The position numbers and the translations under genes are program-made. A stretch of 41,106 nucleotides of DNA from Thermoplasmata archaeon (GTDB lineage: Archaea > Thermoplasmatota > Thermoplasmata > Lutacidiplasmatales > UBA184), in contig JAKIWQ010000002.1 in assembly GCA_022749935.1 (NCBI GenBank), positions 66,480-107,585 on the forward strand. The letters run 5' to 3'. The number at the start of each line of letters is the position of its first letter. Within the stretch, counting starts at the first letter, position 1. The notes under the pieces were generated by a model, which was given only the letters and a program-made list of their open reading frames with translations, was not told the origin of the DNA and made no database searches. This document shows positions 10,491 to 40,193 of this stretch, piece by piece.

Positions 10491-13388
10491 TCAGGGGCCC
10501 GGCGAGGGCCGCCCGACGAGGTAGAATGCCGGTCGCCCCGGCCGGGCCCGGTCCCGTCGACCCTTGGGGTCGTGAGGCGCGGCCTCCGATTCGGGGTAGA
10601 CCGCGACCGACCCGAATCCAAACCTCCGGACCAGGTACGCCTCTGCCGCCCGGAGGGTCGCCGCCTCGTCGATCCGCGGTCCTTCCGGCACCGGCTCGGC
10701 CCGTACCAGCGGACCGACGCGCTCGACATACTTCGGAATTTCCGCGCGGTGGGCCGATAGCTCCGGATGGTCCTTGACCCGGGCCATAACGTCCCGGACC
10801 GTCGGGGTCTCCTTCCGGTCGACCGACTCCCGCAGCCAGGTCTCGAGCGTCCTCTTCCAGGGGTCGGCCACGTAGAAGATCGCCTCCCCCGGGGCCCAGT
10901 CTCCCCGTCCTTCGGACGCCCGGAGCACGGAGCGCAGATCGTCTTCCACCCGATCGAGGAATTCTTCACGGGCCTCGGCGTCCGGTGAGAGACGATACTC
11001 CTCGGGGGCCGGCAATCGGGATTGGGCGACCAGACCCTCGAACCGCCCCTCCCCGAGCTCTTCGGCCAGGTGCGGCGTGATCGGACTCAGGAACAAGGTC
11101 CACGCGCGGGCGAGCCGGTCGGTCACGTGACCCGGCAGGCCGCCTCGGGCGTAGTACCGGCGCAGGAGACGGGGCACCTCGACATAGACGATCTCGGCCG
11201 CCGTGCGAAGGTCGGTCGCGTCGAACGCCCCACGAGCCCGTTTCACCCAGGTGTGGGTCGCCGACTCGAGCCACGCGTCGAGCTCCGGCGGTCCCTCTCC
11301 CGTGCCTGCGGCCTCCCGGACCAGCCGCTCGATGTCTCCCAATCGGGTGAGCGCGGCTTCGACTCCGGTGGGATCGAACTCGAAATCCTGCGAGGGGGAC
11401 GCCACGGTGACGTAGTAGAGTCGGAGCGCATCGGGGCCCCATTCCTCCATCGCCTGGTCGGTCGGTCGAATCCGCCCGGCCTTGGTCGAGGTCTCTTTTT
11501 TTGAGATCTTGGACCCTCCAGGGCCAGTGACCCAACCGTGGACGTAGATCCCGCGGGGCTGGAGTTCCGGCGGAAGGAGCCGGGCATGCGTGTAGAGGAA
11601 GACCGGGAAGTGGACCCGCTTGTGCTCCTTCCCCCCGACGTTGAAATCCAGCGGGTACCAATAGAGGAATTCCGCCCGAACCTCCTCCAACAGGGCTCGA
11701 TCGACCCGTGGCTCCCCCGGCTCGCGGCCCCGAAACACGAACTCGAAGAACGCGTCGGTCAGGTCCTCGAGGCGGAGGCGACCCTCGGAGACGAATCGCC
11801 GCACTACGAAGTAGGCGGGGTAGAAGGTCGAATCCGCGATGGGCTCGATGATCCATTCCGGGTCGAGAGGAAATCGGGTCCCCAGCCAGACCCCCCGCCG
11901 GGTGCACGGCCGGTCCCCAAACCAATCCAAGATGGAGGGGAGCTCCCGACCGTACTCGACCGGCCACGTCGTCACGCGGGCTGCCAAGCTCTTCGTCTCC
12001 GCCTTCCACGCCGGGTCGCTGTAATGGAGGAACCATTGGTCGGGAACCCGCCGGATGACCACTGCATGTCCATTCCGACAGATGACCGGTTTCGTGAATT
12101 CCTGCAGCTCGAAGCACGGACCCTCCCCCCGAAGCTGGTCGACGACGCGCTCCCGGGCTAGCCGGACGGGCACACCCGAAAGGGAGGGCACGGTCATGCG
12201 CCCGCGGACGAACTCGAGCCGGTACAGGCGCTCGGTCGCTTCCTGCAGCGCCGCAGCGTCCGCCAGGTCGTGGACTCCGACCGCACGAAGCGCCCGCTGC
12301 GCCGGCGACCCTTCTCCCACGTTCAGTTCCTCTTCCGAGGCGGTCCAAGCCTCTCGGGGTCCCACGTCGATGAGTACCGGCGGATCCCCCACTTTCTCCC
12401 GGTCGGCCGGGGGAAGCGCGTCGAGAGCGGCCGCGTCCATGGGGGCGTGGGCGGGCACCGACATCACGACTCCGGTGCCGATCGACAGGTCGACCACGGG
12501 GGTTTCGAGGATCGGCACCTTTGTCCCCCGGAACGGTACGGTCACCTCGCGTCCGACCAGGTCGTGGGCAGGCACCTCGTGGCCGATCCGACCCCCGTGT
12601 TGTTCGACGAGCCGCTCGGCCCCCGGACGCGCCGCGAGGTAGTTTCCGGACTCGTGATGCCAGACCACGAGGGTCTCGCCGGGCGCCACCCAGAGATTCG
12701 TCACGCCATAGACCGTCTCGGGGCGGAGGGTGGCGGCGAGTAGGACCCGGCCGTCCTCCAGCGGAAACGGGATGGTCGAAAAACGGACGACGTCGGCGTC
12801 CCCCCCCGATTGCAGGTCGGTCTCGGAGGCGTCGACCGCGACCGGCCCGCAGACCGGGCAGACCGGAGAGTAGTGGGTGCCCTTCACGAGGGCCCCCGCT
12901 TCATTCAACGCGCGGAACTGCCACCGGATGAACGCCCGGTAGTCGTCGTCCACGGTCGTCACGAACGTGGACTCGTCGATGAGCGCCCCGAATCGACGGA
13001 ACACTCGGAGGTACTCGCGACCCAGAAAGCGCGCCGCCTCCTCGGGGTCCTCTAGGCGGGCCCGAGTCGACGCGTCGACCCCGCGCTCCTCGAGTCCCTG
13101 GAGAATGGCGGGGTCCCCGTCGCGGAGCCGTCGCGACCAGGTGACCGCGGGAAGTCCGGAAGCGTGCACCCCCATCGGGAAGAGGACCTCCTCCCCCAGC
13201 ATCCGATGGTACCGGTGGAGCGGGTCCGTGTAGGCGAACCCACGGAGATGGCCGACGTGGAGGAACCCGCTCGGACCCGGATAGGCGACGAGCGCGTAGA
13301 ATTTCCGATGTCCGGCCACCCGCCGGCCGTGGGCGAGGCCGGCCGCCGCCCAGGCCTCCTGCCAATGCCCGGCACGAGAGGCGTCCAT
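10491..13388 (-). CDS. leuS: Leucyl-tRNA synthetase, archaeal type
   Basis: LeuRS charges tRNA-Leu and hydrolyses mischarged products. The 965-residue length fits the archaeal/eukaryotic cytosolic type. The HIGH motif appears as HVGH (residues 44-47) and KMSKS as KISKK near residue 630. Between them lie the CP1 editing domain, with ATLRPETVYG and GTGVVMSVPAHAP followed by the conserved Asp, and a CPVCG element. The anticodon-binding part includes FLSPITPHLAEELGEG, and the C-terminal domain is archaeal. The ATG at 13388 lies 27 nt from a TATA-like box on the same strand. It is divergent from queE and converges with dcd. Confidence 0.96.
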   Translation of the reverse strand: MDASRAGHWQEAWAAAGLAHGRRVAGHRKFYALVAYPGPSGFLHVGHLRGFAYTDPLHRYHRMLGEEVLFPMGVHASGLPAVTWSRRLRDGDPAILQGLEERGVDASTRARLEDPEEAARFLGREYLRVFRRFGALIDESTFVTTVDDDYRAFIRWQFRALNEAGALVKGTHYSPVCPVCGPVAVDASETDLQSGGDADVVRFSTIPFPLEDGRVLLAATLRPETVYGVTNLWVAPGETLVVWHHESGNYLAARPGAERLVEQHGGRIGHEVPAHDLVGREVTVPFRGTKVPILETPVVDLSIGTGVVMSVPAHAPMDAAALDALPPADREKVGDPPVLIDVGPREAWTASEEELNVGEGSPAQRALRAVGVHDLADAAALQEATERLYRLEFVRGRMTVPSLSGVPVRLARERVVDQLRGEGPCFELQEFTKPVICRNGHAVVIRRVPDQWFLHYSDPAWKAETKSLAARVTTWPVEYGRELPSILDWFGDRPCTRRGVWLGTRFPLDPEWIIEPIADSTFYPAYFVVRRFVSEGRLRLEDLTDAFFEFVFRGREPGEPRVDRALLEEVRAEFLYWYPLDFNVGGKEHKRVHFPVFLYTHARLLPPELQPRGIYVHGWVTGPGGSKISKKETSTKAGRIRPTDQAMEEWGPDALRLYYVTVASPSQDFEFDPTGVEAALTRLGDIERLVREAAGTGEGPPELDAWLESATHTWVKRARGAFDATDLRTAAEIVYVEVPRLLRRYYARGGLPGHVTDRLARAWTLFLSPITPHLAEELGEGRFEGLVAQSRLPAPEEYRLSPDAEAREEFLDRVEDDLRSVLRASEGRGDWAPGEAIFYVADPWKRTLETWLRESVDRKETPTVRDVMARVKDHPELSAHRAEIPKYVERVGPLVRAEPVPEGPRIDEAATLRAAEAYLVRRFGFGSVAVYPESEAAPHDPKGRRDRARPGRPAFYLVGRPSPGP

Positions 13389-15739: not shown

Positions 15740-15848
15740 GGGGCTGTGGGGTAGCTACGGACGCGAGGCAACCACCTCCGTCCGCTCTACTGGTCCATCC
15801 TTCGGGCTTTGGGAGCCCGGGACCCCGATTCAAATTCGGGCAGCCCCA
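15740..15848 (+). tRNA. tRNA-Pro (UGG) with a ~34-nt insertion in the D-loop
   Basis: The acceptor GGGGCTG (15740-15746) pairs with CAGCCCC (15841-15847), with discriminator A. The D-stem is GGGT/ATCC. The anticodon stem CGGGC/GCCCG encloses the 7-nt loop TTTGGGA, giving anticodon TGG. The T-arm is CCCGA-TTCAAAT-TCGGG. The D-loop is 44 nt instead of about 10. The extra bases fold into a hairpin: CGGACG with CGTCCG, one bulged C, then GAGG with CCTC and a CAACCA loop. It is probably an archaeal intron at an unusual site, roughly 15756-15789. No textbook bulge-helix-bulge could be drawn, so the exact splice sites are uncertain. Confidence 0.88.
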
Positions 15849-38651: not shown

Positions 38652-38760
38652 GCCCGTGTGGGGTAGCTACGGACGCGGGGCACACACCCCGGCCCGCTGC
38701 AATGGATTATCCTAGAGGCCTGCGGAGCCTCAGACCTGGGTTCGAATCCCAGCACGGGCG
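38652..38760 (+). tRNA. tRNA-Arg (GCG) with a ~34-nt insertion in the D-loop; likely attachment site
   Basis: The acceptor GCCCGTG (38652-38658) pairs with CACGGGC (38753-38759), with discriminator G. The D-stem is GGGT/ATCC. The anticodon stem GAGGC/GCCTC encloses CTGCGGA, giving anticodon GCG. The T-arm is CTGGG-TTCGAAT-CCCAG. The D-loop is again 44 nt, and 32 of those bases match tRNA-Pro at 15740, including the first 13. The inserted bases form a weaker hairpin around GGGG-CACACA-CCCC. It is probably an intron. An archaeal integrase starts 54 nt downstream in the same direction, so the 3' half is the likely integration target. No second copy of the tRNA end was found in the window. Confidence 0.88.
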
Positions 38761-38813: not shown

Positions 38814-40193
38814 GTGTCCGCCCGCGAAGCGACTCGTAAGGAGCCCCGTAGAGCCCATCGGCCCGAGAAGAAACCGTCTGCAAAGGTCGGACGTGAACGA
38901 CACCGGCATCTGCTCGACGACCCTCGGGTGAAGGGCTGGTACGACGAGAGGGCGCTCCGTTCGCGTCTTTCGGCGGACACTTACCTTCGCCAGCTTGGCG
39001 GATTATGCGAGCGTCTGAAGCTTGATCCCGAGGAACTTTCGAAGCTCGCAACGAAAGACCCGGACAGGCTCCACGACCTTCTCGTAAAGTTCGCTGCGGA
39101 CCTCAAGTCGGAGGAGCGGCTCGATTCGTACATCGCGAAGGTCTTTGATGGCCTGCGGTCCTGGCTCCGCGCGCGGCGGGTGGAGTTCGACCAGTTCCCC
39201 CGGTTGAGCCCGGTGCGCGGCGTCTCGCTTGAGAACGAAGTCGTTCCGTCCCCGGACGAGCTTCGCGCTGTCCTCTACAACTCCGGGATGTCTTTCCGGG
39301 GGCGCTCGAGCGCGTTGTTCATGGCTCATGCCGGTCTCCGTCCCGGCGTCCTTGGAACTTACCAGGCACTGGATGGCCTGCGGCTCGGCGATATCCCGGA
39401 CCTCAAGCTTGGGAAGGTTCCGGCGTTTTCAGAGCTACCTTTCTCGATCCGAGTGCCCGCTCGACTCTCGAAGACTCGAAAGCTCTACACCACCTTCGGG
39501 ACAACCGAGCTGGGGGAGACGTTCTTGGCATACCTTCGGGAGAGGGTTGAGCGAGGAGAGAAGCTCGGAGCCGACTCCCCAGTAATCGCAGCCAATCCGC
39601 TTGGCATGGCCCGCGGGTACGCGAAGGACACGGGTTTCCTCACAACGAAGGGGATCGTCATGGAGTTGCGTGAAACCCTGAAGGGCCGCGCACCGGAGGG
39701 GAAGCGTCTACGTCCGTACGTCCTTCGGTGCTACGCATCAACCCGCCTCCTCCTGGCGGAGGCATCGAGTAAGATTCCACGAGACTTGCGAGAGAGCATC
39801 CTCGGGCACGACACCGGCGGCGCTGCAGCCCGTTACCACGTCGGAAAGACCTGGGGGCCCGAGCTGCTGAAGGAGGCGCGCGCATCGTTCAAACGTGCGG
39901 AGACATTCCTCACTACGAACGCGGTGATCGAGTCCAACGAAGGCGGCAACCGTGTCCTCCGCGCCCTGATGGTCGTGAAGGGGATGGCTCCAACCGACGC
40001 GGACAAGGTTGACCTCGGGTCTATGACCGACCCGGAAATCCAAGAGCTGTTCCGGAAACTCGGGATCGGGGCTACGACTTCGAAGCGGTCCGAGAGGGCG
40101 TTCCCCGTCGACGATGTACCGAAGATGCTTGACGCCGGGTGGGAGTTCGTGGCACCCCTGAACGGGTCGATGGCGGTGCTTCGAAGCCCCTAA
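38814..40193 (+). CDS. int: Archaeal tyrosine recombinase (integrase)
   Basis: This site-specific recombinase would catalyse integration and excision at the adjacent tRNA-Arg. The 459-residue protein has an N-terminal SAM-like domain (TYLRQLGGLCERLKLDPEELSKL), then the catalytic domain with Arg I in AGLRPGVLG (Arg176), box II RPYVLRCYASTRLL (Arg305), LGHDTGG (His332) and the nucleophile in ARYHVGK (Tyr341). The ~118 residues after Tyr341 contain a domain seen in other archaeal integrases (LGSMTDPEIQELFRKLGI ... DDVPKMLDAGWEFVAPLNGSMAVL). All catalytic positions are intact, with a Tyr where many family members have His in box II. Codons ending in T or A are commoner than in the chromosome to the left, consistent with transfer. 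Confidence 0.9.
   Translation: MSAREATRKEPRRAHRPEKKPSAKVGRERHRHLLDDPRVKGWYDERALRSRLSADTYLRQLGGLCERLKLDPEELSKLATKDPDRLHDLLVKFAADLKSEERLDSYIAKVFDGLRSWLRARRVEFDQFPRLSPVRGVSLENEVVPSPDELRAVLYNSGMSFRGRSSALFMAHAGLRPGVLGTYQALDGLRLGDIPDLKLGKVPAFSELPFSIRVPARLSKTRKLYTTFGTTELGETFLAYLRERVERGEKLGADSPVIAANPLGMARGYAKDTGFLTTKGIVMELRETLKGRAPEGKRLRPYVLRCYASTRLLLAEASSKIPRDLRESILGHDTGGAAARYHVGKTWGPELLKEARASFKRAETFLTTNAVIESNEGGNRVLRALMVVKGMAPTDADKVDLGSMTDPEIQELFRKLGIGATTSKRSERAFPVDDVPKMLDAGWEFVAPLNGSMAVLRSP

Follow-up and report, generated by a model that had tools for sequence, protein, structure and literature searches.

Non-canonical tRNA introns are known from Crenarchaeota, Nanoarchaeota, Thaumarchaeota and soil Asgard archaea (PMC4090602, PMC4033280, PMC8450103, PMC11291895). 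According to reviews, only the splicing endonucleases (EndA) of the (αβ)2 and ε2 types cut relaxed motifs efficiently (PMC6379350, PMC4033280), and the α4 and α2 enzymes cut canonical motifs only (PMC4033280; cf. PMC6379350, PMC12397907). The reviews attribute few tRNA introns to Euryarchaeota and propose that an added lysine loop of EndA let non-canonical introns accumulate. Korarchaeum cryptofilum is given as the only archaeon that combines an α2 EndA with non-canonical introns, and its enzyme is said to have the broad-specificity loop (PMC4033280). According to a further source, bulge-helix-loop motifs are also substrates of homodimeric enzymes (PMC8707768); the A. fulgidus EndA cuts such a motif at position 37/38 in full-length precursors (PMC6379350).

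The window (the whole stretch of 41,106 nucleotides that was analysed) belongs to the genome of an uncultured soil Thermoplasmata archaeon of Lutacidiplasmatales type, 1.79 Mb in 97 contigs and 95% complete. This genome is labelled G000 below; other G numbers denote other genomes, and L numbers denote loci. Two tRNA genes of the window carry a 34-nt insert, located in both cases between D-loop nucleotides 17 and 17a:

15740-15848, + strand: tRNA-Pro(UGG) gene, 109 nt, with a 44-nt D-loop between GGGT and ATCC
38652-38760, + strand: tRNA-Arg(GCG) gene, 109 nt, with a 44-nt D-loop between GGGT and ATCC

These coordinates and lengths agree with the original prediction. The identity of the two D-loops at 32 of 44 positions and the run of 21 identical bases, which starts at the end of the acceptor stem and reaches into the D-loop, were reproduced as well, and folding returned the 10-bp hairpin with one bulged base in the Pro insert and a weaker hairpin in the Arg insert. 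An 18-base part of the run occurs twice without mismatch in the window, against 0.04 copies expected by chance at up to three mismatches. The shared insert sequence is absent from all other tRNAs of the genome; the count of its carriers stops at Pro and Arg, and the further matches, all with three mismatches, do not exceed the background given by the reversed-pattern control. The intact tRNA-Pro(UGG) gene is missed by both cmscan with the Rfam tRNA model and ARAGORN, an example of complete tRNA genes being missed in such genomes. The Arg gene is misread by ARAGORN and Rfam as a 69-nt tRNA at 38692-38760, starting inside the insert. The tRNA census of the genome, composed of Rfam searches and selected stretches and possibly incomplete, revealed no second gene for the Pro(UGG) or Arg(GCG) anticodon; hence, both genes with inserts should be functional.

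The original prediction had found no standard bulge-helix-bulge (BHB) motif with sensible mature ends. All cut pairs with BHB spacing and at least 3/4 pairs in both helices were enumerated, and each candidate was spliced and scored with ARAGORN. The archaeal rule applied was a central helix followed, on each strand, by a bulge of 3 nt in which the cut follows the second base. The best of 213 Pro candidates, with cuts at 15756^15757 and 15790^15791, yields tRNA-Pro(tgg) with an ARAGORN score of 115.2, compared with no tRNA at all in the unspliced sequence. The best of 150 Arg candidates, with cuts at 38668^38669 and 38702^38703, yields tRNA-Arg(gcg) with a score of 121.7. The unbiased enumeration combined with ARAGORN thus chose the same geometry in both genes, and cuts in 3-nt bulges around a 4-nt helix do provide normal tRNAs. 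The resulting features are as follows:

15740-15756, + strand: Pro 5′ exon, nucleotides 1-17, GGGGCTGTGGGGTAGCT (BHB enumeration, splicing, ARAGORN)
15751-15754, + strand: Pro GTAG, nucleotides 12-15, exon side of central helix H (3/4 pairs with CTCT)
15757-15790, + strand: predicted Pro D-loop intron, 34 nt, at 17/17a, ACGGACGCGAGGCAACCACCTCCGTCCGCTCTAC (enumeration, empty sites)
15758-15784, + strand: inner hairpin h′ of the Pro intron (base-pair covariation)
15785-15788, + strand: Pro CTCT, intron side of H (CTCT in 67/75 sequences)
15791-15848, + strand: Pro 3′ exon, TGGTCCATCC..., from 17a to discriminator A73 (BHB enumeration, splicing, ARAGORN)
38652-38668, + strand: Arg 5′ exon, nucleotides 1-17 (best of 150 BHB candidates)
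38663-38666, + strand: Arg GTAG, exon side of H (4/4 pairs with CTGC)
38669-38702, + strand: predicted Arg D-loop intron, 34 nt, at 17/17a, ACGGACGCGGGGCACACACCCCGGCCCGCTGCAA (BHB enumeration)
38697-38700, + strand: Arg CTGC, intron side of H (CTGC, CTAC or CTAT in 25/26 distinct introns of the genus)
38703-38760, + strand: Arg 3′ exon (BHB enumeration, splicing, ARAGORN)

The position of the insert is confirmed by empty sites. In the same genome, Pro(CGG) and Pro(GGG) have no intron, and their D-arms read GGGT-AGCTTGGTCC-ATCC and GGGT-AGCTTGGACC-ATCC, respectively; compared with these, the insert lies after nucleotide 17, with AGCT before it and TGG behind it. The spliced Pro and Arg products are normal tRNAs with the same D-loop as intronless paralogues and relatives. 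The spacing of the 3-nt bulges, CU^A and AN^U, fits all Arg inserts and nearly all Pro inserts. No outer helix adjoins the 3′ bulge in either the Pro or the Arg D-loop introns, so that the motif is not the strict hBHBh′ but a relaxed HBh′ or bulge-helix-loop form. The suggestion that the insert is an intron is therefore upheld by a BHB-type parse in both genes and by the normal tRNAs obtained after its removal.

Helix H is complete in Arg, with 4/4 pairs in 29/30 sequences, and registers shifted by −1, +1 or +2 retain only 0-2 pairs. In the Pro gene of the window, the pairs between GTAG and the intron CTCT are G·U, a U·C mismatch, A-U and G-C; this near-constant mismatch leaves 3/4 pairs in 67/74 Pro sequences. 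The 4-bp central helix is thus present in full in Arg and relaxed in Pro. Minimum-energy folds rarely form H in the Pro and Arg precursors. They likewise miss it in the canonical 37/38 introns of Leu(UAA) and elongator Met of the same genome, and minimum-energy folding was dropped as a test, since it fails on correctly parsed canonical introns too (two of the four control introns, Tyr and Trp, were parsed to the wrong isotype and left out of the count). The Leu(UAA) and elongator Met introns each have one A·G mismatch in their own central helices, a feature resembling the single mismatch of Pro.

The layout of 75 distinct Pro genes is uniform: GTAG and three bases precede a hairpin of 21-29 nt, which is followed by four bases (CTCT in 67 of the genes), A and N, and TGG. 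The alternative four-base sequences of the Arg introns of the genus can all pair with GTAG. Both hairpins show base-pair covariation: 399/444 tested cells are paired in 74 distinct Pro inserts (maximum of 344 in 2000 shuffles) and 139/156 in Arg (shuffle maximum of 126), the shuffles ignoring kinship among the sequences in both cases. The hairpins vary and covary, and the exons and splice ends stay constant.

A scan of the genome collection found 73 loci with a Pro tRNA containing the D-loop insert, of which 70 are labelled Thermoplasmata archaeon or Candidatus Lutacidiplasma, 2 Euryarchaeota and 1 “bacterium”. They include the type-material genome of Lutacidiplasmatales, AcS3-62 (L129; PMC9287336); the main text of PMC9287336 does not mention introns. 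Within the genus, the full Pro gene with the insert is present in 31/37 genomes, including that of the window, and about 28 genomes have an Arg gene that aligns to the spliced tRNA only from nucleotide 17 or 18. Both D-loop introns are genus-wide. The sister family f3, represented by the single genome G038, has an intronless Pro(UGG) gene (L198), which adds to Pro(GGG) and Pro(CGG) as an insert-free Pro site. At 17/17a, the Arg(GCG) gene of G038 (L199) has an intron of 21 nt, GTAG-TT^A-hairpin-CTAC-AA^T, whose H consists of Watson-Crick pairs throughout. Arg is insert-free in three class members. In the two genomes of family f2 (L200, L201), Arg(GCG) has no D-loop insert, and additional sequence in its anticodon region is interpreted as a canonical intron. 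Genome G061 possesses a Pro intron, with CTAC, whereas its Arg gene is free of an insert and matches over the full length; G061 was placed outside the family by an EndA tree, whose deep branches are poorly resolved and which served for that placement solely.

Inserts in the D- and T-loops are not limited to Pro and Arg in this genome. Ten tRNAs carry T-loop inserts: Asn-GTT, Arg-TCT, Arg-TCG, Glu-CTC, His-GTG, Ser-GCT, Ser-CGA, Ala-GGC, Gly-TCC and Asp-GTC. These inserts are about 30 nt long (G000 loci L028, L029, L030, L206, L207 and L210-L214), and the tRNAs are scored poorly or missed by standard tRNA models. Enumeration gives TTCR-AA^N in 8/10 of them, mostly with the T-stem as outer helix, which makes a full hBHBh′; some of the motifs have one mismatch in the central helix. 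Many T-loop introns satisfy even the strict motif rule, whereas the D-loop introns need a looser reading. A T-arm pattern search produced too many matches to be used. A further D-loop intron was found in the initiator tRNA:

C1:16273-16375 (L020), − strand: initiator tRNA-Met with a 26-nt D-loop intron (central helix AGGA/TCCT)

The initiator Met intron sits further along the D-loop than those of Pro and Arg and is also present in G028 (L247). With Pro and Arg included, 13 non-canonical introns were counted among about 42 tRNA genes identified, and their number in the genome is at least 13. The expectation of the original prediction that euryarchaeal introns are few and near the anticodon fails here. 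Canonical 37/38 introns of the genome are those of elongator Met and Leu(UAA), and introns in the anticodon loops of Tyr and Trp are reported by ARAGORN. D- or T-loop introns are present in G028, too, and in other families of the class, represented by G038 (L248, L249, L251), G037 (L252, L253) and G060 (L255-L257); hence, the trait is wider than the genus. One weak tRNA-like match near a contig end (G000:C80:3743-3816, L209), whose anticodon loop is GAT-like and whose 5′ half is poor, is possibly a tRNA fragment.

Other readings of the inserts were weighed against splicing at 17/17a. The original prediction had allowed for retention of the insert; the mature tRNA would then have an additional hairpin in the D-loop, with G18-G19 left free. 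The hairpin is indeed stable, conserved as a structure and positioned just ahead of the invariant UGG, but a kept hairpin explains neither the conserved splice-site spacing nor helix H of Arg; orthologues and paralogues without the insert exist, and the same motif recurs in the T-loop inserts of the genome, where keeping the insert would break the T-loop. Retention is accordingly very unlikely. The metagenome-assembled source might suggest pseudogenes or assembly errors; the probability of this is negligible, given independent assemblies with the Pro insert in 31 genus members and the Arg insert in about 28, no other gene with these anticodons found in the genome, and exons that stay intact while the introns change. 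Another arrangement concerns Pro only: its functional helix could lie in a register shifted by 2 nt, pairing GUAG with CUAC and leaving a 3 × 2 internal loop at the 5′ site. This register is fully paired (4/4) in 65/74 sequences and appears in the minimum-energy fold of the Pro gene of the window. It is nevertheless improbable, as the cut in its 3′ bulge would fall inside the UGG that every Pro copy keeps and that a normal D-loop needs, and the same shift fails in Arg, with 1-2 pairs.

The origin of the two introns is a separate matter. In Thermoproteales, introns that resemble each other and occupy one site in different tRNAs have been attributed to transposition (Fujishima 2010, as cited in PMC4033280), and copying between tRNA genes by gene conversion or transposition could be considered for Pro and Arg as well. 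The common site, the similar lengths and ends, and the occurrence of the Arg intron in two families, as against one for the Pro intron, are consistent with it. By the same distribution, the Arg intron looks older, and the Pro intron is fixed in one family. However, unlike in Thermoproteales, there is no within-genome excess of similarity: Pro-Arg intron identity is 0.672 within genomes against 0.673 between them, and the within-genome value is reached by 179/300 permutations. Recent copying is thus unsupported, and much of the Pro-Arg likeness in the window is common exon and splice signals. G061, outside the family, has the Pro intron and an intronless Arg, and therefore the site can be invaded separately; site 17/17a may have been invaded more than once. 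Copying is on balance doubtful, one old event being compatible with these data. Of the intron spread supposed by the original prediction, the common site and the seemingly older Arg host stand, and the sequence identity lends it nothing, which leaves a weak case.

The genome encodes one EndA (G000:C25, about 12331-13131), with two PF01974 repeats in one open frame and the catalytic residues in the second; these repeats are the only PF01974 matches of the genome. One RtcB gene is also present. The EndA aligns to the A. fulgidus α′2 EndA, which is among its best PDB relatives, and by sequence it is of the α′2 (homodimeric) type. The crenarchaeal loop (CSL) inserted before the LSLIE segment in the chimera 3p1y is absent from the EndA of G000: the graft site reads AYGSRVGDRLELSLLE, as short as in native A. 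fulgidus, and shows no indel relative to other class members. A different endonuclease specificity, which had also been envisaged, is not indicated by this plain two-domain sequence without the crenarchaeal loop. A second or different splicing endonuclease was considered and rejected, a single gene having been found in the 95%-complete genome. The enzyme type, together with the site, geometry, conservation and empty sites of the inserts, is a matter of direct observation.

We infer with high confidence that both inserts are protein-spliced archaeal tRNA introns at 17/17a, with a GUAG-CUNN helix and cuts by EndA. In the precursor, exon GUAG (nucleotides 12-15) and intron CUNN would form the 4-nt central helix, with the intron hairpin stacked beyond it. 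EndA would cut at CU^A and AN^U, placing each cut between the second and third nucleotides of a 3-nt bulge, and the exons would probably be joined by RtcB. The excision itself is highly probable on these comparative data, and the exact cuts and the ligation are put forward as parts of the same model. The predicted mature D-loops are AGCUUGGUCC (Pro) and AGCUUGGAUU (Arg), and the joined-exon sequences expected for the spliced tRNAs are GTAGCTTGGTCC and GTAGCTTGGATT.

In kind, these are very probably ordinary BHB-type archaeal tRNA introns; what is unusual is their place at 17/17a, their number, the host lineage and the enzyme they are paired with. Like the canonical 37/38 introns, they have 3-nt bulges, a 4-bp central helix and an intron hairpin, but they lie in the D-loop and have no outer helix at the 3′ bulge. 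They share D- and T-arm sites, a high number per genome and relaxed BHB motifs with the non-canonical introns of Crenarchaeota, Nanoarchaeota, Thaumarchaeota and Asgard archaea, although 17/17a is not among the intron positions named in the text of PMC4090602. Unlike in the crenarchaeal-type cases, the host belongs to Thermoplasmata and has a two-domain EndA without the crenarchaeal loop. Korarchaeum cryptofilum is similar in combining a two-domain homodimer-type enzyme with non-canonical introns, but it differs in the loop ascribed to its EndA, which that of G000 does not have.

Of chief interest is this pairing of at least 13 non-canonical introns with one α′2 EndA without the relaxed-substrate loop, which runs counter to the rule given by the reviews for Euryarchaeota; the simple EndA of this lineage had been expected to permit few introns of this sort. 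The chances are about even that this soil Thermoplasmata class gathered D- and T-loop introns while keeping a plain α′2 EndA without the broad-specificity loop. If so, the accepted link between the enzyme loop and intron diversity would not be general, and the substrates of a plain EndA would include a D-loop bulge-helix-loop whose helix has a conserved mismatch.

A 459-aa protein is encoded at 38814-40193 (+ strand) of the window, beginning 53 bases past tRNA-Arg. Nothing in Pfam matches it, and its PHROG match, to an integrase, is very weak (E 0.037); no second copy of the tRNA-Arg 3′ end was found in the genome. Similar proteins are also encoded downstream of tRNA-Arg in G019 (L188) and G032 (L192).
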